Shown: positions 9,954-48,596, counted from the stretch's first letter. The stretch: DNA of 64,000 nucleotides from Thermoanaerobaculia bacterium (GCA_022826745.1 JAJDUI010000004.1:1-64000), one strand, 5' to 3'. Made by a program: numbers and translations. The notes: generated by a model from the letters alone, not told the origin.

Positions 9954-10934
9954 CTATCGGAGGGACGAGGCGGAGTCCCTCAGACCGATCCGCGAGTAGA
10001 GCTGTTCCTTGAAGTCGTCGAAGGCTGCCGAGTCGCCGCGCGTGATCTCGTCGAGGGCGAAGAACTTGTCGGTGGTCGGCGACTCACCCCTAAGCAGGTC
10101 GTGGTCCAGGCCAGCGATTCCGAGGATCGTCCAGCATTCCGTGAAGCCGTCCTGTTTGGCCTTCTGGTGGCTCTTCTCGGCTTCGCCTACTCTGTTGTGG
10201 ACGTTCGAGACGTCCTTTCCACCCTTGATCTCGATTGCAATGACAGGGCGGCTGCGACCCGAGGGTAGTTCCTCATGGATGGCGATGTCCGGATCGGAGG
10301 CGAAGAAGATCCGGATGGGTGCGCCGGCGGCGTTCCGCATCTTGATCGTGGATTGGTCCACTTCGACGTGAGCGCTTTGGGTCAGAACGGCTATCAAGTC
10401 GAACACCCGCCTCGTGGCTTGCTGACCGACGAGGTTCAGGGCGCCGCCCCGCAACTGGGGTCCGAGCGTGAGCAGAGTGAGGTCGTGAACCTTCGATTGG
10501 GTCAGCCGGTCCACCGAGTGCACCAGGTGAGCCGCGCCGATGCAGAGGCAGCGCGCAAGTTCGGCCAAGCGGTCTTTCTGGGCCCTGGATATGGCTCCTC
10601 TTTCCTCCATCGACTTGAAGGGGCTCAGACCGTGCTCCTTGCCGTAGAACTGCTTCTGCGAGAACCCGAGCAGGAGCCTGTAGTAGCCGAGCAGATGGGG
10701 ATTGGCCATGAGCAGACTCGGCACCGCGAAGAGGATCTCGCCTCTCAGGCCCCAGCCGGCCAGGCGCTGAAGTGCTGCCGTGTCGGCGAACTGGCCGAGT
10801 TCCCGATCCACGGTGTGGATGTCCGCTTCGGAAGACGCCTTCAGGAGAGCATCGAGCAGGTGAGTCGACCGGAGCCGCTCCAGGCTCTTGAAGAAGGAGA
10901 TCTGGAGGTCCGGCAGCGGGGGGTTCGGGGTCAC
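9954..10934 (-). CDS. XcyI-type restriction endonuclease
   Basis: 326 residues. The start is the GTG at 10934 that overlaps the methyltransferase stop (GTGA); a longer open frame upstream merely shadows the methyltransferase. The C-terminal half carries a PD-(D/E)XK nuclease core: DPDIAIHEELPSGRSRP with the metal-binding Asp near residue 215, and VIAIEIKGG (Glu-x-Lys near 233-235), followed by NVHNRVGEAEKSHQKAK. This pattern fits the XcyI family, whose characterised members cut CCCGGG; the family match is from memory and specificity is inferred. The order methyltransferase then nuclease fits a type II restriction-modification operon. Confidence 0.7.
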   Translation of the reverse strand: MTPNPPLPDLQISFFKSLERLRSTHLLDALLKASSEADIHTVDRELGQFADTAALQRLAGWGLRGEILFAVPSLLMANPHLLGYYRLLLGFSQKQFYGKEHGLSPFKSMEERGAISRAQKDRLAELARCLCIGAAHLVHSVDRLTQSKVHDLTLLTLGPQLRGGALNLVGQQATRRVFDLIAVLTQSAHVEVDQSTIKMRNAAGAPIRIFFASDPDIAIHEELPSGRSRPVIAIEIKGGKDVSNVHNRVGEAEKSHQKAKQDGFTECWTILGIAGLDHDLLRGESPTTDKFFALDEITRGDSAAFDDFKEQLYSRIGLRDSASSLR

Positions 10935-11803
10935 TGCGCCGTGTCGTAGTCGAGCGCGAAGAGAGTCCGCTGAGTCGAGCGAATGCGCTTTGCTGCTAGT
11001 TCGGCGTACGCCGGGTTGAGCTCGATGCCGACGTACTTGCGGCCCTGCTGTTCGCAGACAACACCGACCGTGCCCGAACCGAAAAAGGGATCGAGGACCC
11101 AGTCCCCGGGAATCGACCCCGTGAGGATGCAGGGCTCGATCAATCTCGGCGGGAATGTGGCGAAGTGGGCGCCTGAGAAGGGCTCGGTGGGAACGGACCA
11201 GACGGTCCGTCGGTTCCTGCCCTTGACGCGAGCTTTCGAGGAGTCGTAGTGGTAGCGCAGCGACTTCGTGAACAGGAACAGGTACTCGTGCGATCGCGTC
11301 GGCCGATCCTTGACGCTCTCGGGCATGCAGTTCGGCTTCTCCCAGATGATGTCGCTGCGGAAGTACCAGCCCGCCTCCCTCAGCGCGAAGGCAACCATCC
11401 ACGGTATGCCCACGAGGTCCTTCGGCTTCATGCCCTCGGGCGTCCGTGCCCTGTAGCTCATCGCGCGAACGGGGTTCTTCTTGTCCGGGGCCCGCGTTGC
11501 GCGGTTGCCGCTCGTGTAGCTGTCGCCGAGGTTGAGCCAGAGCGTGCCGTCGGCCCTAAGGACCCTCCGCACCTCGTCGAAGATGGCGGTCAGGCGCTCG
11601 ATATAGAGGGCAGGTTCCGCCTCGGCGCCGATCTGATCCTCTTCGGCGTAGTCGCGAAGTCCCCAGTAGGGAGGTGACGTGACGCACGTCCGGAACCAGG
11701 AGTCGGGAAGCTCCGGCAGAACCGCCTCGGCCGCTCCTCGAAAGAGAGTGGAGCGCTCCAGGGTGACAGGATCGTCCGATGGCGCCGCGGCTACGAGGTC
11801 CAC
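10931..11803 (-). CDS. site-specific DNA methyltransferase (probable N4-cytosine), partner of XcyI-like nuclease
   Basis: 290 residues, GTG start. Motif order is that of a beta-group amino-methyltransferase: the catalytic TSPPYWGLRDY (around residue 42) comes first and the AdoMet-binding DPFFGSGTVG (around 239) comes late. SPPYWGLRDY is typical of N4-cytosine enzymes, but N6-adenine enzymes with SPPY occur, so the modified base is inferred. It would protect the host from the endonuclease whose gene overlaps its stop codon. Transcription starts away from the ATPase/NACHT operon across a 167-bp gap. Confidence 0.85.
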   Translation of the reverse strand: MDLVAAAPSDDPVTLERSTLFRGAAEAVLPELPDSWFRTCVTSPPYWGLRDYAEEDQIGAEAEPALYIERLTAIFDEVRRVLRADGTLWLNLGDSYTSGNRATRAPDKKNPVRAMSYRARTPEGMKPKDLVGIPWMVAFALREAGWYFRSDIIWEKPNCMPESVKDRPTRSHEYLFLFTKSLRYHYDSSKARVKGRNRRTVWSVPTEPFSGAHFATFPPRLIEPCILTGSIPGDWVLDPFFGSGTVGVVCEQQGRKYVGIELNPAYAELAAKRIRSTQRTLFALDYDTAQ

Positions 11804-11934
11804 GACGCCACTCTACTACCGGCCTCGCTCCCACCGGTGCGGGTCGCATGCTCGCTGGTACCGGGGCCGCCCCGCGCGGCGCCGATCCGTCCCCCTCACG
11901 GTCTCAGTTTGGTGGCCACACACCGATTACCCTA

Positions 11935-11963
11935 TTGAATAGATCTATTCAGTAGAATACTCT
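11935..11963 (+). promoter_or_regulatory. candidate promoter with 16-bp palindromic operator
   Basis: TTGAAT at 11935-11940 and TACTCT at 11958-11963 are 17 bp apart. A start site about 7 nt further on would sit at the GTG of the next gene (11971), giving a leaderless message. The perfect palindrome TGAATAGATCTATTCA (11936-11951) overlaps the -35 box and spacer, where a repressor would block transcription. The patch is clearly more AT-rich than its surroundings. Confidence 0.45.
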
Positions 11964-11970
11964 AACTGCC

Positions 11971-13263
11971 GTGATGGAGTACGAGCGAGCACAAGTAGCA
12001 CTCCTGAGAAACCGCCTGGCGGAGCCTCCCAAGACGATTCAAGCCGTCTTCGGACCCCGCCAGAGCGGCAAGACCACTATAGTCAAGCAAGCCCTCCGGA
12101 CATCCCCGCACCGCTACTACTACTATGCCGTCGACGCGTCCGGCGCCGACGAGACGAACTCACTCGATCCGGCCGCATCGCGGCCGATCGAGTATGTCGG
12201 TGAACGTGACCGGAACTGGCTCGTCCGAACCTGGGAACACGCCCGCGCGGAAGCCGTGCGCCACAACGGCTGCGTTCTTGTGCTGGACGAGATCCAGCAC
12301 ATCCCGGACTGGTCCCGAACCGTCAAGGGCCTTTGGGACGGCGACCGCTGGAACGATATCCCGCTTCGGGTAGTCATCCTCGGCTCGGCGCCGATGGCCA
12401 TTCAGTCCAGCCTGAGCGAGAGCCTCATGGGCCGCTTCGAGCTCATCCGGGTTGGCCATTGGTCCTTCAGCGAGATGGCCGACGCCTTCGGCTTCGACCT
12501 GCCCCAGTACCTCTACTTCGGCGGCTATCCGCGGGTCGCGGGCCTTGCTCCGGGCTGGCCTCCGGAGTGGACCGAGTACGAACCCCGGTGGCGCGACTAC
12601 ATACGAAGAGCGATCGTCACGCCCACCATCGACCGCGACGTGCTCGCGATGACGCGAGTCGACAAGCCAGCCCTGCTCCGACAGGTGTTCGAGTTGGCCG
12701 TCGCGCACTCGGGGCAAATGCTCCCCTACCACAAGATGCTCGGCCGCCTTCAGGACGCGGGCAATGCCACGACAGTGGCCCGCTACGTGGACCTCCTCTC
12801 TCTTGCGGGCCTGTTGACCGGGTTGGAGAAGTACTCGCCCAACCTCCTGAGAGTGCGGAGATCGCCGCCCAAGTTCAATGCCCTGAACACCGCGTTGCTT
12901 ACTGCTACCTCGAACTACACGTTTCGGAACGCTCGGGCCGACCGGAGCTTCTGGGGCCGGCTGGTCGAGAGCGCGGTTGGCGCTCATCTCCTGAACACGG
13001 CGGATTCAGGTCCCCGAGTCCACTACTGGCGCGAGAGCGTTGACGAAGTCGACTTCGTCCTCGAATGGGGAACGCGCGTCGTGGGCATCGAAGTGAAGAG
13101 CGGGGCGAACGTGTGGCCGACGCGCGGAATGCGCGTCTTCCGGGAACGGTTCAGCCCCCATCGCGTCGTCCTGGTCGCTCCCGACGCCACGACGCGGAAC
13201 GCCGTGCCGCTCGCGGAGTTTCTCTCCCGGCCCGCCTCCGATTGGTTCGAGGACGGCGAATGA
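11971..13263 (+). CDS. AAA ATPase with DUF4143 C-terminus
   Basis: 430 residues; GTG at 11971 or ATG one codon later. A P-loop near residues 28-36 (FGPRQSGKTTIVKQ), a Walker B at about 103-110 (VLVLDEIQHIPDW) and a GYPRVAGL segment are typical of the AAA_14/DUF4143 family. The C-terminal DUF4143 region (FWGRLVESAVGAHLLN; VDFVLEW...GIEVKSG) resembles a degenerate nuclease-like fold. Such proteins are abundant in defence islands and accessory regions but lack a settled function. The stop overlaps the next start (ATGA), so the two proteins are made together and may form one system. Confidence 0.8.
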   Translation: MMEYERAQVALLRNRLAEPPKTIQAVFGPRQSGKTTIVKQALRTSPHRYYYYAVDASGADETNSLDPAASRPIEYVGERDRNWLVRTWEHARAEAVRHNGCVLVLDEIQHIPDWSRTVKGLWDGDRWNDIPLRVVILGSAPMAIQSSLSESLMGRFELIRVGHWSFSEMADAFGFDLPQYLYFGGYPRVAGLAPGWPPEWTEYEPRWRDYIRRAIVTPTIDRDVLAMTRVDKPALLRQVFELAVAHSGQMLPYHKMLGRLQDAGNATTVARYVDLLSLAGLLTGLEKYSPNLLRVRRSPPKFNALNTALLTATSNYTFRNARADRSFWGRLVESAVGAHLLNTADSGPRVHYWRESVDEVDFVLEWGTRVVGIEVKSGANVWPTRGMRVFRERFSPHRVVLVAPDATTRNAVPLAEFLSRPASDWFEDGE

Positions 13264-16200
13264 CGATCATCGACCGCACCTGCACCGAGGTCCTGGAGGG
13301 CAAGACCGAACCGGACAGCCGACCGGTCTCGAAGCCGCTCTCGGAGTACCGCTCGGAACCCGCCTACGTCCTGCTCGGCGACCCTGGCGCAGGCAAGAGC
13401 ACCTCCTTCAGGGAGGAGCGCAAGCGGACGCCCGCTGCCGCCGAGAAGGTGGTCGAGGCAAGGGACTTCGTCACCTTCGACGTTGCCGGCCACCCCGAGT
13501 GGCGCAACCGAACCCTGTTCATCGACGGTCTGGACGAGATCCGCGCGGGAAGCCACGACGGCCGCACCGCTCTTGACAAGGTGCGCGCCCGACTCGACGC
13601 GCTTGGAAGGCCCCGTTTCCGCTTGTCGTGCCGAGAGGCGGACTGGTTGGGACCGAACGATTGGGTGCGACTGCAAGCGGTCGCCCCGAGCGGCGAACTC
13701 ACGGTGCTGCGTCTCGACGCGTTGACGCTCGACGACGTACGTCGGATTGTCGAGGCGAGCCCCCTCGTCCTCGACGCGGAGGGATTCATCGATGAAGCAG
13801 GCGACAGGGGCCTGCGGGATCTCCTGTTCAACCCCCAGACCCTGGAACTGCTGATCGAGGCTGTCGGCGGCGCCGGACGATGGCCGGAGAGCCGCATCGA
13901 GACCTTCGAACTCGCCTGCCGGCAACTCGCTAGGGAGCAGAACAAAGAGCACAGGTACTCGCAGCGGAATCCACCCAGCGAGAACCAAGTGCTCAAAGAC
14001 GCGGGACGCGTTTGCGCCTTGCTTCTCCTTTCCGGGACGCCGGGCGTCAGCCTGCTGCCCTCCGCGGAAGAGCACGACACCGACTACCCGAATGTCGAGC
14101 GCCTCGATCCAACCCCCGAAGGGATCGCGGCAGGCGAAGCCGAACTGCTCGCTCGCCGAAGACGCCTTGCCGTATCGAGCGGGCTGTTCAGGAGTGTCGG
14201 CGACAGCTACCCGGCCGCGCAACGCTTCGAACCGGTGCATCGTCACATCGCCGAGTTCCTTGCCGGCGGCTACCTCGCTCAACAGATCGAAGGCGGGCTT
14301 CCACCCGCCCGCGTTCTTGCCTTGATCACGGGCCTCGACGGTGGCGTGGTGACCTCGCAGCGCGGCCTCTCGGGCTGGCTGGCGGCGCACTCCAAGGCCG
14401 CCCGACGGAGGCTGATCGACCGCGACCCCATCGGCATCGGTCTCTACGGCGACATCGGCGGCTTCTCGACCGAAGAAAAGCGAAAGCTCCTGCGCTTGCT
14501 GGCGAGGCAGGGAGCAAGGTTGAAGGATCTCCACTGGCTGAGTGTCCGCTCCTTCGTTCCGCTCGCCACGGATTCGTTGGCGGAGGAGATTCGCGGCGAA
14601 CTGACGGTCGACCCCTGGAAGGAGAACGATCAACACTCGACGGAGTTCCTCCTCCTGCTGCTCCGTTACGCGGCTCCGTTGCCGACTCTTGCGGAACCGA
14701 TTCTCGCGATCCTCCGCGGCTCCGGCTGGTGGGATCGGGTCCGGCACTGGGCACTCGACGCTTTCCTTCGCCACTGTCCGGACAGGGCTACGAGGGTCGC
14801 CCACCTCGAACGACTCCTGTCGGATGTCCACGAAGGTCGACTGGAGGACCCGGACAACCGGATCGCCGGAGCGGCCCTGGAGCGGCTCTATCCGAGCGTG
14901 GTCGGCCCAGCGGACGTCTGGCGCTGCCTAACGCGGACACGGCTCTCGAACCGCTTCGGAACGCATCACCAGTTTTGGAGTGGCTTGGCCGAACCGGAGC
15001 GGTCCTCCGACGCGGAGGTCACGACCCTTCTGGATACCTTGCCGAAGTACGTATCCGGCCTGCGCGCCGTCCTCGACGACATCCCACTAACCAGAGTCGC
15101 AGCGGAACTCCTCGGCCGCGGCCTCGACGCGGCCGGACCTGACCTGACTCCGAACCGACTTTACGACTGGCTCAGCGCTCCCGTGGACTGTCAGCCTGAC
15201 GCTGACAGCCGGGCAACCGGAGATGCACGGATCAGGATTTCCTCCTGGCTGGAAGGCCACCCCGGTGCCTACAAGGAGGCGTTCCGCGAGGGCCTGCGGC
15301 GAGCGGGCGACGACGAACCTCCCGACAACGTCGTCTACGCCATAGAGCAACGGCTGTACGAGGCGGAACCGCCGGACGACTTCGGCTCCTGGTGCCTCGA
15401 CGAGGCCGAGCTACTCGCCGATAGCCGACCCGCCCTCGCAGCGTGGCTGTTCGGGAAGGCCCGGAGACGATTCCGGCAGGGCGAGTCCGGCCTCTCACAA
15501 GCCCGACTGGACGACTGCGTCCGGCATCATCCCTCCTGGCAACCGGCACCCGAAGACCCGAGCGCGGGAAAGAAGTTCCGAGACCAGATGCGGAGACTGA
15601 GAGCGTCCCGAAAGGCCGCCGAAGAAGAACGCGAGCAAGAGCGGAGCCAGTGGTTGGATGCCGTTCGCCAGGAAGTTCCAGCACTCCGCGAGAACCGGGG
15701 CGCCCCGTGGCTGCTGGAACGCCTCGCCGGGAAGTGGTTCAAGAATGCGTCAAGCGCAGAGACCACATACGAGGATTGGCTTGATGGGGGATCGAAGCCG
15801 CACCATCTCAAACAGTCAGACCAACCGCGGATCCAATTGAGGGACTGGCTTCGCGAGGAGTTCGACTCCGACGAGGAGCTGGCGACTGCGGCGCTTCAAG
15901 CCCTGCGGGGCGTCGTGGACCGGGACGACATGCCAGGACCTGACGAGATCATCCGCCTCCACTCGGAGTCACGACGCCACCGGCTGTCGCTGCCCTTTCT
16001 GGCGGCGCTTTACGACCGCCACCGGGAAGCGCCTGGCTTCGTCGAGAACCTGACCGAACGCCAAAGACGCCAAGCTCTCGCGGTCCACTACTGCGTGCCG
16101 CCGGTCTGGGGCCGTCGCCCCGCTTGGCGCCGCGACCTGATCCGGCGGCACCCCGAGGTTGCGGCCTCCGTTCTGCTGCCTTACGCGCGAGCCGAACTCC

Positions 16201-17453
16201 GGGGCGGCAGCAATCGCGTCGCCGGCCTCCCGGTTGCCGGCCTCGAGGAACTCGCCCACGATCCGGATCACGCCGAGTTGGCGGCGCTGGTGAGCCTGCC
16301 CCTCCTGCGCGGCTTCCCGGTCCGGGGCCGCGCAACGCAACTGACCGACCTGAACCGCTTGCTCTGGGCCGCCCTGCGGCACGCCGACCGGGACGAAATG
16401 CGCGCGGTCGTCGCGACAAAGCTGGCGGCCCGGAGCATGACCGTCGCCCAGAGGGTCGTCTGGCTGGGAGCGGCTCTCGTCGTGGACCCGCACGCCTACG
16501 CGGGACCTCTGGAGGAGTTCGTCGACGGAATCGAACAGCGCGCAAACCGACTTGCGGAGTTTCTCTGGTTCGACTTCACCCTGAGTCCGAAGAACCTGCC
16601 TCCGAGAGCGCTGGAGGCGCTCATCCGGCAGTTCGGAAGAGCGGGCATCTACCGGAACGAACTTCCACACTCTCCCGACCCGTCCCCTGGACGCCTGGGC
16701 GGCCTGATCGAACTCCTGGCGGCCGCTCCGGAAACAGAAGCGGCCGAGGCGCTTGATCGGCTTGCGAAGGACGAATCCCTCTCGGCATGGCAATCCAACC
16801 TGCAGCTCGCCGTCGATCGGCAGACCGTCGCGCGCCGGGACGCTTCCTGGGAGCGCCCCGATCTGGCCGCCATTCGCGCCACCCTTGACAACGCAGCGCC
16901 GGCGAACGCGGCTGACCTCGCAGCCCTTGCTGCCGACCGCCTCGACGAGCTCGCAACGACGATTCGTCACGCCAACACCAACGACTGGCGGCAGTACTGG
17001 AACGAAGACGCGAACGGCCAGCCGATCGGTTCCAAGCACGAGGAATCGTGCCGGGACGCTTTGCTTTCGCGCCTTCGCTTCCTTCTCCGAGACGAACTCC
17101 ACGACCAACCAGAGGCGGCGGCCGCCGCCAGGAAACGCGCTGACATCGGACTCTTCGGACCCGGCTTCCACGTCCCAGTTGAAATCAAGAAACAGTCCAA
17201 CCGCGAACTGTGGCGTGCCGTGCGCGACCAACTCGTCGCCAAGTACACCCGGGATCCGGCGACCGGCGGCTACGGCATCTTCGTCGTCTTCTGGTTCGGC
17301 GATCCCGACAAGACCCAGTTGGATGAAACGGGCAAACGGCCAAGCACCCCGGAAGAACTGCGGCTCAGGCTCAAGGCCGGCATCGTCGCCCAACTGCCGC
17401 AAGAACAGGCGAGGAAGATCGCCGTCCGCGTCATCGACGTCAGCAAGCCCTGA
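13260..17453 (+). CDS. NACHT-like NTPase with helical-repeat middle and C-terminal PD-(D/E)XK nuclease; candidate antiviral protein
   Basis: 1397 residues from ATG 13260 (ATGA overlap with the previous stop; the frame is open further upstream but only as a shadow). The P-loop comes almost at the N-terminus (LLGDPGAGKST, Lys46), followed by LFIDGLDE (86-93), the hallmark NACHT Walker B with tandem acidic residues. A long alpha-helical region with no recognised domain follows (about 300-1250). The C-terminus has a nuclease core: E in HEESCRDALL, ADIGLFG with Asp1295, then VEIKKQ (Glu1308, Lys1310). Many bacterial NACHT/Avs proteins sense phage products and activate a nuclease, usually at the N-terminus; here the nuclease is C-terminal. 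A defence role is inferred from architecture and from the neighbouring restriction system. Confidence 0.75.
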   Translation: MTIIDRTCTEVLEGKTEPDSRPVSKPLSEYRSEPAYVLLGDPGAGKSTSFREERKRTPAAAEKVVEARDFVTFDVAGHPEWRNRTLFIDGLDEIRAGSHDGRTALDKVRARLDALGRPRFRLSCREADWLGPNDWVRLQAVAPSGELTVLRLDALTLDDVRRIVEASPLVLDAEGFIDEAGDRGLRDLLFNPQTLELLIEAVGGAGRWPESRIETFELACRQLAREQNKEHRYSQRNPPSENQVLKDAGRVCALLLLSGTPGVSLLPSAEEHDTDYPNVERLDPTPEGIAAGEAELLARRRRLAVSSGLFRSVGDSYPAAQRFEPVHRHIAEFLAGGYLAQQIEGGLPPARVLALITGLDGGVVTSQRGLSGWLAAHSKAARRRLIDRDPIGIGLYGDIGGFSTEEKRKLLRLLARQGARLKDLHWLSVRSFVPLATDSLAEEIRGELTVDPWKENDQHSTEFLLLLLRYAAPLPTLAEPILAILRGSGWWDRVRHWALDAFLRHCPDRATRVAHLERLLSDVHEGRLEDPDNRIAGAALERLYPSVVGPADVWRCLTRTRLSNRFGTHHQFWSGLAEPERSSDAEVTTLLDTLPKYVSGLRAVLDDIPLTRVAAELLGRGLDAAGPDLTPNRLYDWLSAPVDCQPDADSRATGDARIRISSWLEGHPGAYKEAFREGLRRAGDDEPPDNVVYAIEQRLYEAEPPDDFGSWCLDEAELLADSRPALAAWLFGKARRRFRQGESGLSQARLDDCVRHHPSWQPAPEDPSAGKKFRDQMRRLRASRKAAEEEREQERSQWLDAVRQEVPALRENRGAPWLLERLAGKWFKNASSAETTYEDWLDGGSKPHHLKQSDQPRIQLRDWLREEFDSDEELATAALQALRGVVDRDDMPGPDEIIRLHSESRRHRLSLPFLAALYDRHREAPGFVENLTERQRRQALAVHYCVPPVWGRRPAWRRDLIRRHPEVAASVLLPYARAELRGGSNRVAGLPVAGLEELAHDPDHAELAALVSLPLLRGFPVRGRATQLTDLNRLLWAALRHADRDEMRAVVATKLAARSMTVAQRVVWLGAALVVDPHAYAGPLEEFVDGIEQRANRLAEFLWFDFTLSPKNLPPRALEALIRQFGRAGIYRNELPHSPDPSPGRLGGLIELLAAAPETEAAEALDRLAKDESLSAWQSNLQLAVDRQTVARRDASWERPDLAAIRATLDNAAPANAADLAALAADRLDELATTIRHANTNDWRQYWNEDANGQPIGSKHEESCRDALLSRLRFLLRDELHDQPEAAAAARKRADIGLFGPGFHVPVEIKKQSNRELWRAVRDQLVAKYTRDPATGGYGIFVVFWFGDPDKTQLDETGKRPSTPEELRLRLKAGIVAQLPQEQARKIAVRVIDVSKP

Positions 17454-17461
17454 CCGGGCGC

Positions 17462-17515
17462 CGGCCATCCAGTTCTCCTTGTAGACCCGGAACAGGTCGG
17501 AGTCGGGCCTGGTCT
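17462..17515 (-). pseudogene. relic of a DUF5916-type outer-membrane protein gene
   Basis: Read on the minus strand, about 17 codons give DSDLFRVYKENWMAG, close to GSDLFVVYNENWMAE near the C-terminus of the intact DUF5916 gene at 31.04-33.30 kb; the DNA is similar too. Nothing else of the gene remains. It lies in the 95-bp gap between the NACHT gene and the permease, at the edge of the defence island. Confidence 0.6.
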
Positions 17516-17548
17516 ACTCCGTGGAGCGTCCCTGGGGCCAAGCTAACG

Positions 17549-19306
17549 CTAACCGCCCGTTGCCTTCCGCTTCACCTCGACCGTGACGATGTCCAGGTCG
17601 TGGTACTGCTGATGCCGGACCGAGGACGCGAGATGGCGTAGCAGCCGGAGGGAGATCTCCTGCTCGAGCGGCGCCGCTTCGGCCTGGTCGCCGAGCAGGG
17701 CGAGCCGTTCCTGCAGGTTTCCTTCGAGCGGCGCGACGACGAACTCCAGCGTCGCGCCGTTCTGATCCCGTGACGCCGCCAGCCGCAGGCGCCGGGGCCG
17801 GCCGCCGGCTTCCGCGTCTCCATCCTCTCCAAGGAGGGTGAGCAGGGCCTCCTCGCCGACAGCGTCGAGGCGCTGGGCCATCGCCTGGTCCCAGCCGCTG
17901 CGCTCGGCGAAGGCCGCCAGGAATTCGCGGATCCGGGGCAGCGCGGCCGGATTGAACGCCGCCTCCATCCGGCTGGGGCCCCGGCGCGCGAAGTCCACGA
18001 CGAGTGTCAGGAGAATCGCGGTGAGGCCGCCGGTCGTGATCCCGTTGCTGAAGATCCCGCCCGCGAAGTCGGCGACGAGCTCCGGGAAGATCGCGTCGTT
18101 GTGGAAGCCGAGTCCGAGCCAGAAGGAGACGCCGACGATCGTGCCCTTGCGGTAGTCCATTCCCCCCTGCATGACCAGTCCGATGCCGATGAGGAACAGC
18201 ATGGCGGTCAGGACGATCAGGTAAGCGCCCACGACTGAACCGGGAATCGCGAGTACGAGCGCCAGAGCCTTCGGCAGGAAGGCGACGATGAAGAAGAAGG
18301 CTCCCGTCGCGATACCCACGGCCCGGGCCCCGACCCCGGTGATCTCGACCAGCGGCGCGGCCAGCGAGTAGGTCGTGTTGGGCATCGTTCCGGCAAGACC
18401 GCACAACAGGTTGCCGATCCCGTCGACCGTCACCGTGCCCTGGACCGCGCGGAAGTCGACGACGTCCGGATTCCGCCACGAGACGCGCTGGAGCGCGACG
18501 CAACTGCTGATGGCGCGGATCGAACAGATCAGTGCCGTCAGCAGGAAGGCAGGGAGAAGGGTCCAGAACGCCGGCCCGAAGGCGAGATCGAAGCCGGGCG
18601 CCTCGATCGATGGAATCCCGATCCAGGCCGCCGCGGCGACGCGTTCGCCATCGTAGAGCCCGAAGAGGGCCGCGACCGCCGTACCGACGACCACGCCGGC
18701 GACCGGCGCCCAGAGGCGCAGTCCGGCCGCCCCCTTCAGCGAAATGCCCAGAACGGTCAGAATCGTGACCAGGGCGATCACGGGCGCCGCCTGGACCGGG
18801 GTGCCCTCGGGTACGTCGTCCAGCATGTCGAAGGCGATCGGCATGACGGTCACGGGCAGCAGCATGATCACGGTGCCGGAGACCGCCGGTGTCAGCAGCC
18901 GCCGGAACAGCGGAAGCCGCGCCGAGACCAGGAGTTGCAACAGGGCCGAGATCGCGACGAGCGTGGCGAGCATCGCCGGACCGCCCTCCGCCACGGCCGT
19001 GACGCTGATCCCGACGAAGGCGCTGGAACTGCCCATGACGAGCATGTGGCCGCCGCCGATTCGGCCGAAGCGAACCGCTTGCAGCGCCGTGGTCAGGCCG
19101 CTGATCGCGACCGCGGCGAAGACCGCCCAGGCCAGATGGGACTCGGCCGCGCCGGCAATCCGCATCACCGCGGTGGGAAGCAGGATCGGGACCGTGACGG
19201 TGATCAGGCCGAGCTGCAGGCCGAGACCTGCGGCAAGCGCCGCGGGCGGGTGGTCGTCGGCCTCGTAGCGAAGCCCCTGGCCGCGGGCCGGTTCGTTCCC
19301 GCTCAT
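17549..19306 (-). CDS. NCS2 (xanthine/uracil) permease family transporter with C-terminal extension
   Basis: 585 residues; ATG 19306 chosen because it starts just before the first membrane helix and leaves the divergent PKS promoter free. About 12-14 membrane spans with the NCS2 core (GGGHMLVMGSSSAF; the AGTMPNTTYSLAAPLVEITG loop corresponds to the NAT signature region). The last ~125 residues are soluble and charged (AVGEEALLTLL...LRLLRHLASS) and vaguely resemble a GHKL ATPase N-box, a domain not usual for purine permeases. Substrate unknown. Diverges from the PKS with a 47-bp shared upstream region. Confidence 0.85.
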   Translation of the reverse strand: MSGNEPARGQGLRYEADDHPPAALAAGLGLQLGLITVTVPILLPTAVMRIAGAAESHLAWAVFAAVAISGLTTALQAVRFGRIGGGHMLVMGSSSAFVGISVTAVAEGGPAMLATLVAISALLQLLVSARLPLFRRLLTPAVSGTVIMLLPVTVMPIAFDMLDDVPEGTPVQAAPVIALVTILTVLGISLKGAAGLRLWAPVAGVVVGTAVAALFGLYDGERVAAAAWIGIPSIEAPGFDLAFGPAFWTLLPAFLLTALICSIRAISSCVALQRVSWRNPDVVDFRAVQGTVTVDGIGNLLCGLAGTMPNTTYSLAAPLVEITGVGARAVGIATGAFFFIVAFLPKALALVLAIPGSVVGAYLIVLTAMLFLIGIGLVMQGGMDYRKGTIVGVSFWLGLGFHNDAIFPELVADFAGGIFSNGITTGGLTAILLTLVVDFARRGPSRMEAAFNPAALPRIREFLAAFAERSGWDQAMAQRLDAVGEEALLTLLGEDGDAEAGGRPRRLRLAASRDQNGATLEFVVAPLEGNLQERLALLGDQAEAAPLEQEISLRLLRHLASSVRHQQYHDLDIVTVEVKRKATGG

Positions 19307-19353: not shown

Positions 19354-22300
19354 ATGCCCCACGAGTCGGTGCCGCCACCGTCGGACGCAACATACGGAGC
19401 AGCGCGGGCGAGCGCGCCGGGCAACGAGCCGGTCGCGATCGTCGGCATGGCCTGCCGATTCCCCGGCGCGGACAGCCTCGCGGCCTTCTGGGATCAGTTG
19501 GATGGCGGTGTGAATGCCGTCAGCGAGGGGGTCCCGGGTTCCGGGATCGGCCGGATCGGCGAGCTCTTCCCGGACGGCGCGGAGCTCCGCCGTGCCTGCC
19601 GTTTCGGGGCCTATCTCGACGGCCTCGACCAGTTCGACGCCGCCTTCTTCCGCATCTCGCCGGTCGAGGCGCAGATGCTCGATCCCCAGCAGCGGTTGAT
19701 GCTCGAGACCTGCTGGCGAGCGCTCGAAGACGCGGGCATCGATCCGGACGGTCTGAGGGGCAGCCGGACCGGGGTCTATGCCGGCATCAGCAACAACGAG
19801 TACCGCGGTCTGATCCTCGACGTCAGCGAGACGGACGAGCCGGCCGCCAGCCTCTACGCCGTCACCGGCACGTCGTTCAACACCGCCATCGGGCGGGTCG
19901 CCTTCGCGCTCGGCCTGGAAGGGCCGGCCCTGGCGCTGGATACCGCCTGCTCGTCCTCCCTGGTCTCCATCCACCAGGCCGTGTCCAGCCTGCAGCGCGG
20001 CGAGGCCGATCTCGCGCTGGCCGGAGGGGTGCACACGATCCTCTCCGGCCGATTGCTGGAACTGCGCGCCAACGCCGGCATGCTGTCGCCCGACGGGCGC
20101 TGCGCCACCTTCGACGCCGCCAGGAACGGCTACGTCCGGGGCGAAGGCTGCGGCATCGTCGTGCTCAAGCGGCTCGCCGAGGCGGAAGCCGATGGCGACC
20201 GCATCTGGGGCGTCGTTCGCGGCTCGGCCCTGAACCAGGACGGTGCGAGCCAGGGGCTGACCGTGCCGAGCCGTCCGGCGCAGGAGAAGGTCATCGAGGC
20301 CGCGCTGCGCGAGGCCGGGATCGCGCCCACCGATGTCGACTACGTCGAAGCGCACGGCACGGGCACCGAAGTGGGCGACCCGGTCGAGGCGGAGGCGGTG
20401 GGAACGGCCTATGGCCGTGGTCGCGATCCGGACCGGCCGCTCTTGATCGGCTCGGTGAAGACGAACATCGGCCACCTGGAATCGGCCGCGGGGGTGGCCG
20501 GGGTCATCAAGGTGCTGCTGGCGATGAACAAGGGGGTCATTCCCAGGCACCTCCACTTCAGCACGCCGAACCCGGAGATCCCATGGGATCGGCTGCCGCT
20601 CAAGGTCACGGCGGAGCCCACGGCATGGCCGGACGTGGACGGCCGGCCGCTGAGAGCGGGCGTGAGCGGCTTCGGCTGGTCGGGCACGAACGCCCATGTC
20701 GTGCTCGAGGGATACGGCAAGCCGGGCGCCGCCGCGGAGGCGGAGCACCTGCCTGCCGGCGCGGCTCTTCCGATCGCGGTTTCGCTGCCGGAATCGGTCG
20801 CGGACCTGACGCCGGCTGAAGTGGCTCTCCCGGAGCGCGGGGCCCGCCTGCTGCCGCTGTCGGGCAAGTCGGACAACGCGCTTCGCGAACTGGCCGGCGA
20901 GGTTCTGTCCTGGGTCGACGGGGGGATCGGCGATGCGGCCGAAGGCGATGCCGGTACCGCGCTGCTGGCGGACATGGCATGGACGGCGAGCGTCGGTCGA
21001 AGCCACTTCGACCGGCGCGCGGGCGTCGTGTTTCGCGACGGCGCTTCGTTGCGCCACGGGTTGGCGGCGCTTGCCGGAGGCGAACGGGAGGCCGCGTCGC
21101 GGGCCGCGTCGAAGGTGGCGTTCGCCTACACCGGACAGGCCAGCCAGTGGGTCGGCATGGGCGAGACCCTCTACGAGAGCGAACCGGCGGTTCGAGCGGT
21201 GCTCGACCGCTGCGATGCCCTGCTCCGGGAAGACAGGGGCGGCTCGCTGCTCGACGTGATGTTCGGGCGTTCCGGCGACGCCGGCGACCTGGACGATCCG
21301 CAGTGGAAGCAGCCGGCCATCTATGCCCTCGAATGCGCGCTCACCGCCCTCTGGTCGAGCCTCGGGATCCGGCCCGACGTCGTGCTCGGACACAGCCTCG
21401 GGGAGATCGCGGCCGCCCATGCGGCGGGTGTGTTCAGTCTGGAGGAGGGGTTGCGCTTCGCCGCTGCGCGGGGGGCGCTGATCGGGGCGGTTCCGGGCGA
21501 CGGGGCGATGGCCGCGGTCTTCGCGCCCCCGTCGCGGGTGACGGCGACGGTGGAAGAGCACAATGCGGAGTACGGCGGGGTCGGCGTGAGCGTGGCCGCC
21601 GACAACGGGGCGCACCAGGTGGTGAGCGGTCCGCTGGAAGCGCTCGAGGCGCTTGAACGGCGCTTCGAGGCGGACGGCGTCCGTGCGGTGCGACTACGGA
21701 AGAGTCCCGCCTACCACAGCGCCATGATCGAACCGGCGCTGGACGATCTGGAGGCGGCGCTTGGTGGAACGACGTTCGCGCCGCCTTCCGTTCCGTTCGT
21801 CAGCAACCTGACCGGGCGAATCGTGGAAGCGGACGACGCCCTGGACGCCGCCTACTGGAAGCGGCAGGCTCGCGAGCAGGTCGCGTTTCGCGCTTGCATC
21901 GAGACCCTGGCCGAACTGGGCGTCGACGCCGTGGTGGAGATCGGTCCGCACGCGGTGCTCAGCCAGATAGCCGCCATGTCCTGGCCCGCATCGGCGGAAG
22001 GCGGCGCGCCGGCGACGATCTCGAGTCTCCTGCGTCCCGGGTCGAAGGTCACGGAGGCCGAGGCGGAAACCGCCTTCGTCGCCGCGGCCGCGGCGGCCTG
22101 GGAAGCGGGACTGCCGGTCCGGTTCGAAGGGCTGTACGAAGGCGAGGCGCGGCGCCGGATCGCGCTGCCCGGCTATCCGTTCCAGCGCGAACGCCACTGG
22201 GTCGAGGGGTCGAGGCGTCGACGGACCACCGCCGGCCATCCGCTGCTCGGCGACCGCCACGAATCGGCGCGCGGCGAAGTCATGTTCGAAACCGAGGTGT

Positions 22301-25300
22301 TTCCTTCGGAGCCCGCCTGGCTGAACGATCACCGCGTCTTCGGCCGGCTGATCGCGCCGGGCGCGCTCTTCGGCGCCATGGCGGCCGCGGCATCGAGCGG
22401 CGAGGACGGTGGGCCGGCGACCCTGGAAGACGTGCAGTTGCACAATCCGCTGGTCTTCGCCGAAGAGGACCCGGAGGATGGAGGCGGGGAAGGGGCTGGA
22501 CGCATGGTTCAGCTCTTGCTGGATCCGCCGGAAGACGAACCGTCGAAACGCGTCCAGATTCTCAGCAGGGGCGCCGGCGACGAGGAATGGACGCTGCACG
22601 CCGAGGCCCAGGCACCAGCCGCTCCGCCGAGCCTGGGGCCCGCGCTGTGCGTCAACCTGAAGAAGCTGAAGGCGGATCTGTCGCCGGTCGACGTGGAGGC
22701 CTTCTATCGCGCCAAGGCCGAGGTCGGAATCGATCTCGGCACGTCGTTCCGTACCCTGGGCGCGGTCTGGAGCCGGCCCGGCGAGGCGCTGGGCGAGGTG
22801 TCGTTCCCCGCCGGACTCGGCGCGAACGGACTCGACGTCCATCCGCTGCTGCTCGACGGCTGCTTTCAGGTCATGGGGGCGGCGCGAAATCCGGACGGAG
22901 CCGACGACGGCATCACCTATCTGCCGTTCGGCTGGGAGCAACTGCGGCTGCGGGGTCGGCTGCCCGACCGGATTGTCTGCCATGTGCGCCTGCGGGAGAG
23001 TCCGCGCGACGCGGCGCCGGAGGCGGAAGGCGGACAGCCGCCCGAGGTCGTGGCCGGAGACCTGTCGTTCTACGACGACGCCGGCGTGCAGGTCGGGGAA
23101 CTGACCGGCTACACCGTGAAGCGAGCTACGCGGGCGGCGCTGCTTTCGGCGGTGGAAGGCGTGAACGAGCTTCTGTACGAGGTCGCGTGGCGGGACCGCG
23201 CGCTGCCGCCGGGCATGCCGTCCGCGGACTTCCTGGCCGCGCCGGCAGCGGTCGGAGCGGAGCAGGGGCCCTTCACCGACTACCTGGCGGCGGAAGGCGT
23301 CGGCGCGGACGACAGGGCCGCGTTGCTCGCGGACCTCGAGCTGCTGTCGCACGCCTACGCGCTCGCCACGCTGGACAGGCTTGGCTGGCGGCGCACGGTC
23401 GGCGAGTCCGTCGACTCCGACGCGCTGCGGCAGCGTCTGAACATCGGCCCGGAGCACCAGCGCCTGTTCGGGCGCATGCTTGAGATGCTGGCCCGATGCG
23501 GTGTGCTGAGCGCCGCGGATGGCGGCTACGTCGTCCAGGTCGGGACCGGGGAACCGCTGCCGGAAGGCCTTCCCGACGACGCGGACGCGTTCGCGAGCCG
23601 GATGGCGGCGCGTTACCCGCACGGATCCACCGAGATCGGACTGTTCCGGCGCAGCGCGCACGCGTTGCCCGACGTGCTGATCGGCGAGATGGACCCCCTC
23701 ACCCTGCTGTTCAGCAGCGGCGAGCCGACTGCGGCCGACCTGTACAAGAAGGCGCCGGTGGCCCGGGCGGCGAACCGGATGCTGGCGGACGCGACCGCGG
23801 CGCTGCTGCGCCGGATGCCGGCGGAACGAAGGCTGCGCGTGATCGAGGTCGGCGCCGGGACCGGATCGGCTACCGCGGTCGTGCTGCCGGAGCTCCCCGA
23901 AGGCCGCTACGACTTCACCTACACGGATATCTCCGCCGGTTTCTTCGCGGAGGCCGAGTCGCTGTTCGGCGGCAGCGAAGCGTCGATCGACTACCGGGTT
24001 CTGGACATCGAAGTCGATCCGGTCGAGCAGGGATTCGACCGCCACGGCTACGACATCGTCATCGCCTCCAACGTGCTTCACGCCACGCGCTACCTGGACG
24101 AGACGCTGGCCCACTGCCGCGAACTCCTGGCGCCCTCGGGCCAGTTGCTGGCGCTGGAGAATCTGCGCGGGCAGGGCTGGCTCGACCTGACCTTCGGACA
24201 GCTCGACGGCTGGTGGCGCTTCGCCGACGACTACCGGCCGAGCCACGCACTGGCCGACCCCGGCATCTGGCGGCGGGCGCTCGCGGATGCGGGTTTCGGC
24301 GAGGTCGCGATCCTCGGCGTCGACGAATCGGATCCGGCGGCGAAGCCGGACCGCGGCGTGATCCTGGCGCAGGGTCCCGCGGATGTCGACGAGGCGCCCG
24401 GCCTCTGGGTGCTGGCGGCGGACAGGGGCGGCACTGCCGCTGAACTCGCCACGGAACTGTCCGCGCACAACCAGACGGTCGTCCTGGCGGGCGAGGAAGT
24501 CGAGATGGAGCGGCGCGAAGCGTGGCAGGCGTTGCTTGAAGACCTGCCGGAAGAGGTTCCGCTCGCCGGCATCGTTCACCTGACCGGGCTCGACGGTCAC
24601 GGGGCCGGGGCTTCAACCCTGGAAATGGCCGGCGACGCACGGCGCAAGGCGGCGAGCGCCCTGGCGCTGGCGCAGGGCATCGGCGATGCCGGTGCGACGC
24701 CGACGCACGGCGTGTGGTTCGTAACCCGTGGGGCGCAGGTGCTGGAGAAGGAGACCGGCGGCGAACTGGCGGGTGCCACGCTCTGGGGACTGGGCAAGGT
24801 GATGACGCGCGAGGCTGCCCATCTGCAGCCGCGGATGATCGACCTCGACCCCGGTGACGGTGCGCCGCTGGCCGATCTCGTCAATGAACTGCTGTATCCG
24901 GATCCGGAGAACCACATCGCCTACCGGTTCGGCCGCCGTCAGGCCGCCCGGCTGGTCCGGGCCGGCGAGGGCGTGGTGCGTCTTGCGCCGCCGGACGATA
25001 CGGCCTGGGCGCTCGCGTCCGACCCGGGGGGCTCGCTCGACGCGATTCAGGTCGAGCCCTTGCCGGCGGCGCGGCTCGAACCGGACGAGGTTCGCGTCGC
25101 GATCGAGGCGGTGGGGCTCAACTTCCGGGACGTGTTCATCTCGATCGGCCTGGTCGAGGATTCCCTGGGCGGAGAGTTCTGCGGCCGCGTGCTGGAAACG
25201 GGCGCCGGCGTCTCGAGCGTCGCGCCGGGCGACCGTGTCGTGGGCATGGCGTTCCGCGCGTTCGGAACCGAGACCGTGATCCCGGAAGACCTGATCGTGC

Positions 25301-28300
25301 CGGCGCCGCCGGGGTTCTCCGTCTCGGAACTGGCGACGTTGCCGACCGCGTTCGTGTCGGCGGCGCTCTCCTTCGACATGTCGGGCTTGGCAGCCGGCGA
25401 GCGGGTCCTGATTCACGCCGGAGCGGGTGGCGTGGGGCTGGCGGCGATCCAGCTCGCCCAGGCCGCCGGCGCGGAGGTGTTCGCGACCGCGAGCGCGCGC
25501 AAGCGCGCCTACCTCCGGTCGCTGGGCGTCGAGCACGTCTTCGACAGCCGCACGACGGCCTTCGGGCAGGAGATCCTCGACGCGACGGACGGGGCGGGCG
25601 TCGACGTCGTCCTGAACAGCCTGACCAGCGAGGGTTTCATCGACGCGAGCCTGTCCTGCCTGGCCCAGGGCGGCCGCTTCGTCGAGATGGCCAGGGTCGA
25701 CATCCTGAGCGAGGAGGAGATGGCGGCCGTACGGCCGGACGTGGCCTATTCCATCCTCATGATCGATGTCCTCAAGGAAGAAGACCCGCCCCGAGCCGGA
25801 GAGATCCTGAGGCGGATCGTGAAGCAGTTGTCGGAGGGCGTGCTCAGGCCCCTCGTCCACGCCCGATGGCCGTTGCTCGAGGCCGGCCCCGCCATGGAAT
25901 CGATGCGTGCGGCCCGGCATATCGGCAAGATCGTGTTCACGAATTCGCCCCTTGCCGGGGGCCGGCTGCGGGAGGACCGCACGGTTCTCGTGACCGGCGG
26001 CCTCGGCGGCATCGGCTGCGCGGTAGCGGGCTGGCTGGCGGACCGCGGCGCCGGCACGATCGTGCTGAACGGCAGGCGGCCGCCGGACCCCGAAGCCGAG
26101 GCGGCGATCGAGGCGCTGCGGGACCGTGGGGTCACGGTTCAGGTCGAACTCGCGGATGTGACGGACGCGTCCGCGGTCGACGCGATGCTCGAGCGCGTGG
26201 ACCGGGAGCTGCCGCCGCTCGGCGGGGTGATCCACAGCGTCGGCGTACTGGCCGACGCCGCCCTCGGCAACCAGAGCTGGGAGAGCTTCGAGACGGTGCT
26301 GTGGCCGAAGATGCTCGGGGCCTGGCACCTGCACCGGGCGACGCTGGATCGGGATCTCGAACTGTTCGTCCTCTTCTCGAGCGTTGCCGGCGTGATGGGC
26401 AATCCGGGTCAGGCCAACCACGCGGCGGCGAACGCGTTCCTGGATCAGCTCGCGGCGCACCGCCGCGCCCGGGGGCTGCCGGGCCAGTCGATCGCCTGGG
26501 GCGCCTGGTCGGGCATCGGCGAGGCGGAGGAGCAGCGGGAACGGATCGCCGGCCACTTCGCGGCCCGCGGCGTCCGCTGGATCGCACCGGACCAGGGCCT
26601 CAAGGTGCTCGACTGGCTCGTGCGTCATGACCTGACGGCCAGCGTCGTGACGGCGGTCGACTGGCCGGTGTTCGGCGAGTCCCTCGAAGACCGTCCGCCT
26701 CTGCTCGAGGCGCTGCTGTCCGACGCGGCCGACGAGGGCGACGATGCGGCTTCGACGGAGGATCTGCTGGCGCGCCTGCGGGATTCGCCGCCGGAAGAGC
26801 GCGAGAGCCTCCTGGTTGCATACCTGCAGAGCGAGGTGCAGGCCGTGCTGCGGCTGCCCTCGGCGCCGGCGCCGGCGGTCGGCTTCTTCGACCTGGGCAT
26901 GGACTCGCTGATGGCGGTGGAGTTGCGGAATCGACTGAACCGCGCGTTCGCCGGCGCCTACACGGCGCCGAACACGCTGGTGTTCGACTATCCGGACATC
27001 GCCGCCCTGGCAGGTCACCTTGGCGGGGAGCTGGGCGATGCCGGCGCCGCGACGCCGCCGCGGGGTGCGCCCGCGCCGGCCGTTCCCGCGACGGTGCGGG
27101 AGGACGACGACGACAGGATTGCGATCGTCGGCATGGCCTGCCGGCTCCCCGGCGCTCCGGACCTCGCGGCCTACTGGCGGCAGCTCGAGTCGGGCGGCGG
27201 AGCGGTGACCGACGGACGGCCGGATCCCGGGCCCTGGGACGGGGTCTGCGGCGATCCCGCGGCCGGCGATGTCACCCATCGTCGCGGCGGCTTCGTCGAG
27301 GGGATCGACCAGTTCGACGCCCGGTTCTTCGGGATCAGGCCGATCGAAGCGCACACGATGGATCCGCAGCAGCGGATGTTGCTGGAGACGACCTGGCAGG
27401 CCCTCGAGGACGCCGGGATCGATCCGGACGGGCTGAGAGGCAGCCGCACCGGCGTGTATGCCGGGTTCAGCGGCTGCGAGTATCGGGATCTGGCGGGCGC
27501 GGGCGGATCCGGCGTCGACTATCTGGGTACCGCCGGCAGTGTCGCCGTCGGGCGCATCGCCTTCGCGCTCGGCCTGATGGGGCCGGCGATGCCGCTGGAC
27601 ATGACCTGCGCCTCCTCGCTGGCCGCGATCCACGAAGCGGCGATGGCCTTGCAGAGCGGCGAGATCGATCTTGCCCTGGCCGGCGGCGTCAAGGCGATCC
27701 TGTCGCGGGCGGTGACGGACTTCATGGTCGAGATCGGGATGCTGTCGTTGACCGGCGAGTGCAGGACGTTCGATGCCTCCGCCGACGGCCATGTCCGGGG
27801 CGAGGGCTGCGGCATCGTCGTGCTCAAGCGGCTCGCGGAGGCGCAGGCTGACGGCGACCGGATCTGGGCGGTGATCCGGGGATCGGCGGTCAACCAGAAC
27901 GGGGCGAGCGCCGGCCTGACGGTGCCGTACGGTCCGGCTCAGGAGCAGGTGATCGAGGCCGCGCTCGATCGCGCCGGCATCGCGCCGGCGGAGATCGACT
28001 ACCTGGAAGCGCACGGCACGGGATCCGCGCTGGGCGATCCGATCGAGGTGCAGGCGGCCGCCGCGGTCTACGGCCGGGGACGGGAACCGGAACGTCCCCT
28101 GCTGATGGGGACCGTCAAGACCGGCATCGGCCATCTGGAAGCGGCGGCAGGCATCGCCGGCCTGATCAAGGTCGTGCTCGCGATGCGCCAGGGCGAGATC
28201 CCGAAGCAGCTCCATTTCCGGACGCCGAACCCGGCCATCGACTGGGAGCGCCTGCCGGTTCGGGTGACGGGAGAGGCGACCGCCTGGCCGGACGACCCGG

Positions 28301-28920
28301 ACCGGCCGGCCCGTGCCGGGATCAGCTCTTTCGGGCTGTCCGGAGCGAATGCCCACGTCGTCGTCGAGGCGCACGGCGAGTCGAACGGGGTGGCCGCCGG
28401 CAACGGCCTGCCCTTCGCGCCGGCAGGCGAGCCGCGGCCGGTTGCGGCAACCGCGCCGGAGACGGAGTCCGATCCGGCCGCGACGAACGGGGACCAGCCA
28501 CGTCTGGCGCGGTTGCTGCCGCTCTCGGCCAAGTCCGGGGACGCGCTCCGGGATCTGGCGAACCGGTATCTCGGCTGGCTGGACGAACATGCCGACTCGC
28601 TGTCGGGTGAAGGGGAGGCGGAACAGTTGCTGTCGGACATGGCCTGGACAGCGTGCGTCGGGCGGAGCCACTTCGAGCACCGCGCCTCCGTCGTGTTCCA
28701 CGACGCGGCCTCGCTGCGCGAAGGGTTGCGCGCGGTGGCCGCCGCGGACGGCAAGCGGGAACCTGCTGTCGCGGACGGCGGTTCCGTCGAGGCGGCGGCG
28801 GCAGCCTACGAGGCCGGGGACCCGGTTTCGCTGGCCGGGCTGTTCGCCGGCGAAGAGCGGCGGCGGGTCGCGCTGCCCGGCTATCCGTTCCAGCGCCGTC
28901 GCTTCTGGATCGGCTCCTAA
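19354..28920 (+). CDS. type I polyketide synthase, KS-AT-DH-MT-ER-KR-ACP-KS with the second AT missing
   Basis: 3188 residues. KS1 (25-450; Cys199, His334, His374), AT (588-905; GHSLGE with Ser681, PAYHS around His788), DH (962-1255; HxxxGxxxxP at His993, Asp1168), C-methyltransferase (about 1330-1690; [10 protein letters not shown] at 1498), ER (1890-2205; HAGAGGVG at 2021), KR (2200-2440; GGLGGIG; the usual catalytic Tyr of QANYAAAN is His2356), ACP (2470-2560; DLGMDSL, Ser2518), KS2 (2588-3010; Cys2752, His2887, His2927). After KS2 comes the KS-AT linker, then directly the post-AT linker ([17 protein letters not shown]) and stop: no AT, ACP or thioesterase. The full reductive loop plus MT predicts reduced alpha-methyl-branched chains, perhaps built iteratively. 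It converges on the hydrolase-PPTase-ACP operon with a 4-bp overlap. Confidence 0.92.
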
Positions 28921-47798: not shown

Positions 47799-48596
47799 TC
47801 ACGAGCCGGTTTCCTGGCGACGCTCTTCGTGGGCGGGGCGGAAGAGGTCCTGGTGCGCTCTCATCCGGTAGCTGTTGCCCCGGATGTTGACGATGTGGCA
47901 GTGATGCAGGAGGCGATCGATGAGCGCCGCGGCCATGATCTCGTCGCCAAGCACGCCACCCCATTCCTCGAAGCCCTTGTTGGAGGTGAGCACCGTGGAG
48001 GCCCGCTCATGTCGAGCGTTGATCAACTGGAAGAAGAGCACGGCGCCGTCCTGGCTGATCGGCAGGTAGCCGATCTCGTCCACGACCAGCAAGGCGGGAT
48101 GGGTGAGCACCCGGAGCCGGCGCGACAGGTTGCCTGCAGCCTTCGCCTCGGTCAGCGACTCGATCAGGGCCGCCAGCGTGCCGTAGTAGACCTTGCGGCC
48201 CGACTCGGCGGCTGCGATCGCCAGACTGATCGCGAGGTGGGTCTTGCCCACTCCCGGCGGCCCCAGGAGAATCACATTCTCGGCGCGCTCCAGGAAGCCC
48301 AGCTCGTGGAGGCTCTCGATCTGCTCCCGCTTGATGCTGGGCTGGAAGCTGAAGTCGAACTGGTCGAGCGTCTTGACCGCCGGCAGGCGCGACGAGCGCA
48401 TCGCCGCCTGTAATCGGCGGTTGTTGCGCAACACGATCTGGGCGGAGAGCAGCTCCTCGATCGCCTCGGAAGCGGTCACCGCTCCGCCGTCGGCCTGGGC
48501 CAGGATGCCGTCCACGGCTTCCAGGGCGCCGGGCATTTTCAAGTCCGCCAGCATCTCTCGCAGCCGAGCCCGCCGATCGCCTGCCGGCGCCTTCAT
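47799..48596 (-). CDS. istB: IS21 helper ATPase IstB
   Basis: 265 residues. AAA+ DnaA-like ATPase: the N-terminal helix bundle is followed by LLGPPGVGKTHLAISL (Walker A), ALLVVDEIGYLPI (Walker B) and STVLTSNKGFEEWGGVLGD. IstB remodels target DNA for the IstA transposase. Its ATG overlaps the istA stop (ATGA). Confidence 0.93.
   Translation of the reverse strand: MKAPAGDRRARLREMLADLKMPGALEAVDGILAQADGGAVTASEAIEELLSAQIVLRNNRRLQAAMRSSRLPAVKTLDQFDFSFQPSIKREQIESLHELGFLERAENVILLGPPGVGKTHLAISLAIAAAESGRKVYYGTLAALIESLTEAKAAGNLSRRLRVLTHPALLVVDEIGYLPISQDGAVLFFQLINARHERASTVLTSNKGFEEWGGVLGDEIMAAALIDRLLHHCHIVNIRGNSYRMRAHQDLFRPAHEERRQETGS

Follow-up and report, generated by a model that had tools for sequence, protein, structure and literature searches.

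Does the large gene for a NACHT-type nucleoside triphosphatase (NTPase) found in a stretch of Thermoanaerobaculia bacterium DNA act alone, or does it form an immune system together with the DUF4143 ATPase gene immediately upstream? The stretch analyzed, hereafter the window, is 64,000 nucleotides long (GCA_022826745.1 JAJDUI010000004.1:1-64000). A preliminary description, made from the sequence alone, had proposed the pair as an undescribed two-gene defense system. We found that the two genes are coupled across many genomes, and we consider it probable that they constitute a self-contained mobile two-gene immune module, in which an EruA-like NACHT receptor is accompanied by a DUF4143 ATPase that serves as both partner and autoregulator. 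The features on which the argument depends are as follows:

Positions 11926-11961, no strand assigned: conserved palindromic operator-like site, with a perfect 16-bp palindrome, TGAATAGATCTATTCA, at 11936-11951 and outer arms ATTACnCTA / TAGnGTAAT.
Positions 11974-13263, plus strand: DUF4143 AAA+ ATPase (P0001) of the PDC-S01 type, with AAA_14 followed by DUF4143, the latter containing a PD-(D/E)XK-like motif; an alternative GTG start lies at 11971.
Positions 13260-17453, plus strand: EruA-like NACHT NTPase with a C-terminal PD-(D/E)XK nuclease (P0002), 1397 aa from an ATG start, matching NCBIfam NF058535.
Positions 13332-14459, plus strand: NACHT module of P0002 in the AlphaFold model (residues ~25-400), running on into the next helical domain.
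Positions 14460-16649, plus strand: helical-repeat body of P0002 (residues ~401-1130), all-helical in the AlphaFold model and presumed to be the sensor or regulatory region.
Positions 17031-17450, plus strand: predicted PD-(D/E)XK nuclease domain of P0002 (residues ~1258-1397), with Asp1295 at 17142, Glu1308 at 17181, and Lys1310 at 17187.

The coupling of the two genes is the most direct evidence. When 84,980 reference genomes were scanned with an alignment of 16 members, 463 relatives of the NACHT protein came to light, and a chance open reading frame (ORF) is thereby excluded. The best 80 were fetched; they were picked by similarity to the window's protein, such that the coupling figures hold for this branch only, not for the whole set of 463. 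In 76 of the 80 loci, the gene immediately upstream, in the same orientation, encodes a relative of P0001 (47-76% identity), so that the adjacency first noticed in the window is general among these relatives. Two of the remaining four loci are cut by contig ends, and two (L054/L055) have no partner. The latter are very similar NACHT copies in one Dehalococcoidia metagenome-assembled genome, neither with the palindrome, and one of them has transposase-like and recombinase-like ORFs nearby. In the window the upstream ORF contains both AAA_14 and DUF4143. It overlaps the NACHT ORF by ATGA, exactly as the preliminary description had stated; at almost every locus the spacing between the genes falls between about -7 and +17 nt. 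The pair is fused as a single ORF of 1811-1832 aa in five genomes (L021, L023, L042, L043, L086), and since the closest kin of the window's protein are both fused and unfused, fusion or fission happened more than once.

The two proteins have also been inherited together. Their pairwise distances correlate (Mantel r 0.84 for 74 pairs; between phyla, 0.86), and the sampled pairs span 12 named phyla. Cultivable carriers of the pair include Thauera linaloolentis (L102) and Methyloversatilis (L110/L114). Partnered NACHT proteins form one branch of 87 rows (FastTree, support 99, long branches noted), outside which the EruA-like plasmid genes fall. Two small partner-less lineages (L027/L029 and L054/L055) lie inside this branch and are apparent secondary losses; another locus (L022) has only a remnant of the ATPase next to an intact NACHT ORF. 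The NACHT gene is present as a single copy in the source genome.

What kind of protein is the larger partner? P0002 contains both a Walker A (GDPGAGKS) and a Walker B motif (LFIDGLDE), and all 81 paired relatives share residues G43, G45, K46, D89, D92, and E93. The call of a NACHT P-loop NTPase at 13260-17453 was thus well founded, and its ORF coordinates were exact. A profile search of the full protein returned a full-length match to a NACHT antiphage family, NF058535 (antiphage_EruA), aligning residues 25-1395 with model positions 16-1318 of 1318, at a score (798 bits; range 797-798) under the cut-off of 1000. Pfam NACHT did not match P0002, although it does match 3 of 16 relatives, and no PADLOC model matched P0002, those for Avs included. 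In the AlphaFold model of residues 1-1164 (predicted local distance difference test, pLDDT, 87.2), the best structural match was the active NLRC4 chain of the NAIP5-NLRC4 inflammasome (Z 20.7, root-mean-square deviation 4.3, 400 residues aligned). NLRC4 structures headed the Foldseek list, in which Avs4 ranked 11th; aligned with the NACHT model, Avs4 gave Z 9.4 over 281 residues. The modeled structure therefore places P0002 within the NACHT/STAND fold. Helical repeats follow the NTPase, as first described, but their length comes to ~650-730 residues and not 950, because the NACHT module reaches to about residue 400-500; HEAT-type scaffolds match the helical body weakly in Foldseek. Avs STAND NTPases have N-terminal effectors and a C-terminal repeat sensor. 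In the AlphaFold models of P0002, the NACHT module starts at about residue 25 with nothing preceding it and the nuclease is C-terminal, a predicted layout that departs from the effector-first, sensor-last arrangement of bNACHT and Avs proteins.

The C-terminal domain is predicted to be a PD-(D/E)XK nuclease. The core residues named in the preliminary description are conserved almost without exception across 81 paired relatives (D1295 in 81, E1308 in 80, and K1310 in 81), are also invariant among 16 diverse relatives, and form the signature D1295 ... E1308-x-K1310. The AlphaFold model of residues 1135-1397 (pLDDT 89.9) bore out the expected nuclease fold: VIA-align returned almost only PD-(D/E)XK enzymes, led by Can2 (8.3), OkrAI (8.2), BglII (8.2), and PaqCI (8.0) and followed by BstYI and McrC, with Z of 7.4-8.3 for the six. 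A Z of about 8 is modest by itself; the assignment follows from the uniformity of the match list together with the presence of the motif. Nuclease activity would be expected of such a domain.

The smaller partner matched AAA_14 (1.6e-20) and DUF4143 (1.1e-25) in Pfam, and the sequence suggests a winged helix between these two parts. It also matched the PADLOC model PDLC04791 for PDC-S01 essentially along its full length (3e-145, 1-425 of 429). PDC-S01 has been described as an ATPase fused to PD-(D/E)XK, in agreement with P0001; it is reported as the fourth most common defense annotation among prokaryotes, and no function has been validated for it (PMC12988326). Residues K33, D105, E106, E332, and D360 are conserved in 100% of the 74 partner ATPases and E373 and K375 in 99%. 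Given the motifs conserved in 81 NACHT relatives and 74 partners, each protein has retained one site of ATPase type and another of PD-(D/E)XK type. ATPases linked to a NACHT gene separate on the tree from solo ATPases (support 98).

How the pair might be controlled is suggested by the palindrome ahead of it. Among 75 loci, 69 have a match with at most five mismatches to the 18-nt core TTGAGTAAATTTACTCAA within 120 nt before the DUF4143 start, as compared to 1% of shuffles. The consensus across loci is ATTACnCTATTGAGTAAATTTACTCAATAGnGTAAT, and the center of the palindrome lies a median of 29 nt ahead of the ATPase start. The palindrome also precedes solo DUF4143 relatives in Thermus, Bacteroides, and Collinsella; it is absent ahead of NACHT genes that have no ATPase partner, and absent at a distant Ensifer DUF4143 gene. 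In an unbiased palindrome scan of 396 Acidobacteriota genomes, matches occurred in only 20 genomes. Of the 14 fetched Acidobacteriota loci with the exact form TGAGTAAWWTTACTCA, 11 lay at DUF4143 genes belonging to the same subfamily (one broken), and none of the TGAATAA-type palindrome loci from the same scan was at a DUF4143 gene. Solo DUF4143 genes of Acidobacteriota with the same palindrome 20-75 nt before the start include L139, L141, L143, L147, L149, L153, L155, and L156, among others.

Because the palindrome tracks DUF4143 genes, solo ones included, and not partner-less NACHT genes, the simplest inference is that this ATPase subfamily recognizes it, with no such role for a host regulator or the NACHT protein, and that the site is older than the capture of the NACHT gene. 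It is a candidate dedicated operator for an abundant, uncharacterized ATPase family, and its closeness to the start codon suggests that the ATPase represses its own expression. A sigma-70 consensus scan of the window's upstream region found no classical promoter, and an overlap of palindrome and promoter is thus only putative. Two other roles for the site were considered. A global regulator site was rejected in the source genome, where the palindrome occurs once in 4.39 Mb at two or fewer mismatches, and is unlikely elsewhere, given 20 of 396 genomes and an exact form found mostly at DUF4143 genes. A phage-borne version or phage target motif is unsupported: viral contigs encode no relative, and 0 of 80 palindrome-bearing viral loci have a DUF4143 gene.

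The same observations could be read more narrowly, with the ATPase and palindrome merely driving the NACHT gene, without a role in defense, and the working system being a single EruA-like gene. Solo DUF4143 relatives bear the same palindrome in metabolic surroundings and EruA-like proteins elsewhere lack such a partner, as an independent regulator would predict. The two proteins fuse, however, and the partner has kept its Walker and PD-(D/E)XK motifs intact (99-100%); both facts imply a role that goes beyond regulation, and we regard this explanation as unlikely.

A layout of two overlapping genes behind an operator also recalls type II toxin-antitoxin systems. The NACHT nuclease would then be a dormant toxin and the operator-binding ATPase its antidote and autorepressor, with host shut-off by a phage freeing the nuclease. 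The order of the genes fits, as do the overlap of stop and start codons and the palindrome shortly before the first gene's start. In such systems, however, the second gene is not kept without an intact first, and here the NACHT gene has stayed intact where the DUF4143 gene is broken or missing: in L022, L027, L029, L054, and L055, and likewise for all EruA-like plasmid genes examined. Fusion into one chain is also unfit for an unstable antidote. A toxin-antitoxin arrangement is accordingly very improbable.

Is the module mobile, and does it move alone? Two further features bear on this question:

Positions 11829-17567, no strand assigned: presence/absence unit containing only the two genes and the operator, delimited by comparison with sister genomes G302 and G398.
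Positions 9954-11803, minus strand: XcyI-family type II restriction-modification (R-M) genes, a restriction endonuclease (PF09571) and an N4/N6 methyltransferase (PF01555), situated between HpcH/HpaI and permease genes.

In G398 (L130), neither the R-M genes nor the pair is present at the window's site, and the HpcH/HpaI and permease genes are 6 bp apart. In G302 (L131), the R-M genes are present (94% identical) and the pair is absent; a 9-bp gap replaces 11829-17567, with the sequence resuming at 17568, at the permease. G302 has its own pair elsewhere, fused (L021). This presence and absence at the site defines a transfer unit of ~5.7 kb with just two genes, which are mobile as a pair. A single island of R-M and NACHT genes was rejected on the evidence of G302, where the R-M genes occupy this site without the pair. 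The type II restriction system that the preliminary description placed next door is real, but it is an insertion separable from the unit, to which it does not belong. The XcyI endonuclease ORF as listed overlaps the methyltransferase, and the Pfam match covers only residues 172-474, such that the true start is probably further in. On the other side, at 19354-28920 (plus strand), a mechanical ORF listing gave a large modular polyketide synthase-like ORF of 3188 aa near the module. At 48213-48329 (minus strand) there is a second, weak match to the EruA model (E 1.4e-4), confined to model positions 9-47 and probably no more than a P-loop ATPase.

Within the genus, relatives occur in 14 of 21 genomes, at varied places, and several are decayed. 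Decayed pairs were seen in related genomes (L030, L031, L136), and in another genus of the same phylum (L033) a deletion has left a remnant in which the beginning of the DUF4143 gene is followed directly by the end of the NACHT gene. Such patchy, mobile distribution with frequent decay argues against a role outside defense, such as repairing DNA, maintaining plasmids, or keeping other mobile elements in check, with the nuclease used on cellular cues; so do homology to a family named antiphage by NCBI and a receptor fold in common with NLRC4 and Avs4. For a non-defense role it can be said that the genes flanking the relatives are mostly housekeeping, that phage records contained no copy, and that PDC-S01 is an unvalidated candidate (PMC12988326). 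On balance, we find it distinctly improbable.

The preferred reading, a mobile two-gene immune module, would work as follows. The NACHT receptor would be held as an autoinhibited monomer until its helical-repeat body detects a phage product or another cue of infection. ATP-dependent oligomerization of the NACHT module, as in NLRC4 and Avs, would then gather the C-terminal PD-(D/E)XK domains, which would degrade DNA and so abort the infection. The DUF4143 ATPase would work with the NACHT protein, probably as a physical partner, as the fusions in five genomes suggest, and would also control expression by binding the palindrome ~30 nt upstream of its own start. A more specific version is offered tentatively, as quite possible yet short of probable: that the ATPase is a sequence-specific DNA-binder of TTGAGTAAATTTACTCAA in at least 12 phyla, captured once by a reverse-order NACHT nuclease to give autoregulated two-component immunity, with the ATPase both controlling expression and licensing or loading the nuclease.

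Several points weigh against a two-gene immune module. The evidence for it is computational. P0002 falls below the EruA equivalog cut-off, so that even the function assigned to EruA is borrowed. The NACHT half without an intact partner in L022, L054, L055, L027, and L029 indicates that the partner is not strictly required everywhere, and 6 of the 75 loci are without a clear palindrome. For the nuclease model, the best VIA Z of only 8.3 is in a range that calls for caution, and Foldseek gave no match below E 0.001, its list being dominated by PD-(D/E)XK enzymes. Few PADLOC hits were found among 133 flanking proteins of the relatives, in mostly housekeeping surroundings, and support from a defense-island context is weak.

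Apparently undescribed in searchable sources are the stable union of the two genes, their fusion in nature, their transfer as a two-gene unit, and the conserved palindrome; the searchable literature yielded no source for EruA or HyoA, for DUF4143 with NACHT, or for the palindrome. The novelty claimed for the system thus holds for the union, but not for its halves, which are already named (EruA-like, below cut-off, and PDC-S01). P0002 is a bacterial relative of the immune receptors of animals and of antiphage defense, and the pair is a good candidate two-gene antiviral system. For the PDC-S01-type ATPase, the locus offers a partner of its own, a fusion found in nature, a minimal transfer unit of two genes, and a DNA motif as probable binding site. 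If the ATPase does read the palindrome, one of the commonest unexplained candidate defense genes of prokaryotes would gain a DNA ligand and a mechanism.

Among known systems, EruA (NF058535) is the closest to P0002, with full-length homology and the same order of NACHT, helical body, and C-terminal nuclease. Members above the cut-off (L035 and L040) have the same nuclease D, E, and K residues; they differ in having neither a P0001-type DUF4143 gene nor the palindrome. P0002 is on a separate branch of the tree and, by its score (798 against 1000), is a relative of EruA and not a member by the NCBI cut-off. EruA-family plasmid genes have no constant partner, and none of the P0001 type was found in Bradyrhizobium, Vibrio, Pantoea (beside ppl), Agrobacterium, or Burkholderia. 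On a Pantoea agglomerans plasmid (L037, 1420-12622), an EruA-like NACHT gene lies beside ppl, annotated as an anti-phage gene, and an Abi family gene, adjoining a recombinase and an integrase. On a Paracoccus plasmid (L040, 5914-11144), an above-cut-off EruA gene is followed downstream by a DUF4143 gene unrelated to P0001, possibly a case in which these two kinds of protein came together independently. E. coli genomes queried with the Pantoea and Vibrio genes as DNA gave no match. HyoA (NF058534), a related NACHT antiphage family, matched P0002 only partially (144-1097), in split stretches and at 150 bits against a cut-off of 1200.

P0001 and PDC-S01 both combine an ATPase with PD-(D/E)XK. PDC-S01 is catalogued as a single-gene, unvalidated system (PMC12988326), whereas P0001 is half of a stable two-gene unit, on a branch distinct from solo relatives. 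By genomic linkage, it is not a single gene, being NACHT-linked or fused in 76 of 80 loci.

Bacterial NACHT proteins as a rule have an N-terminal effector, a central NACHT, and a C-terminal sensor (PMC12169576). The reverse order recognized in the preliminary description, with the effector C-terminal, goes against this rule and is found in EruA as well. Avs (AVAST) has the STAND/NACHT fold in common with P0002 and differs in its N-terminal effector and C-terminal repeat sensor (PMC12169576). Clade 6 proteins bNACHT25 and bNACHT32 likewise join NACHT to a PD-(D/E)XK DNase, which is needed for defense there; their nuclease is N-terminal, their sensor is C-terminal, and no partner gene is described (PMC12169576). 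In P0002, by comparison, the predicted nuclease is C-terminal and nothing stands before the NACHT module, which makes the protein a counter-example to the effector-first, sensor-last rule for NACHT immune proteins.

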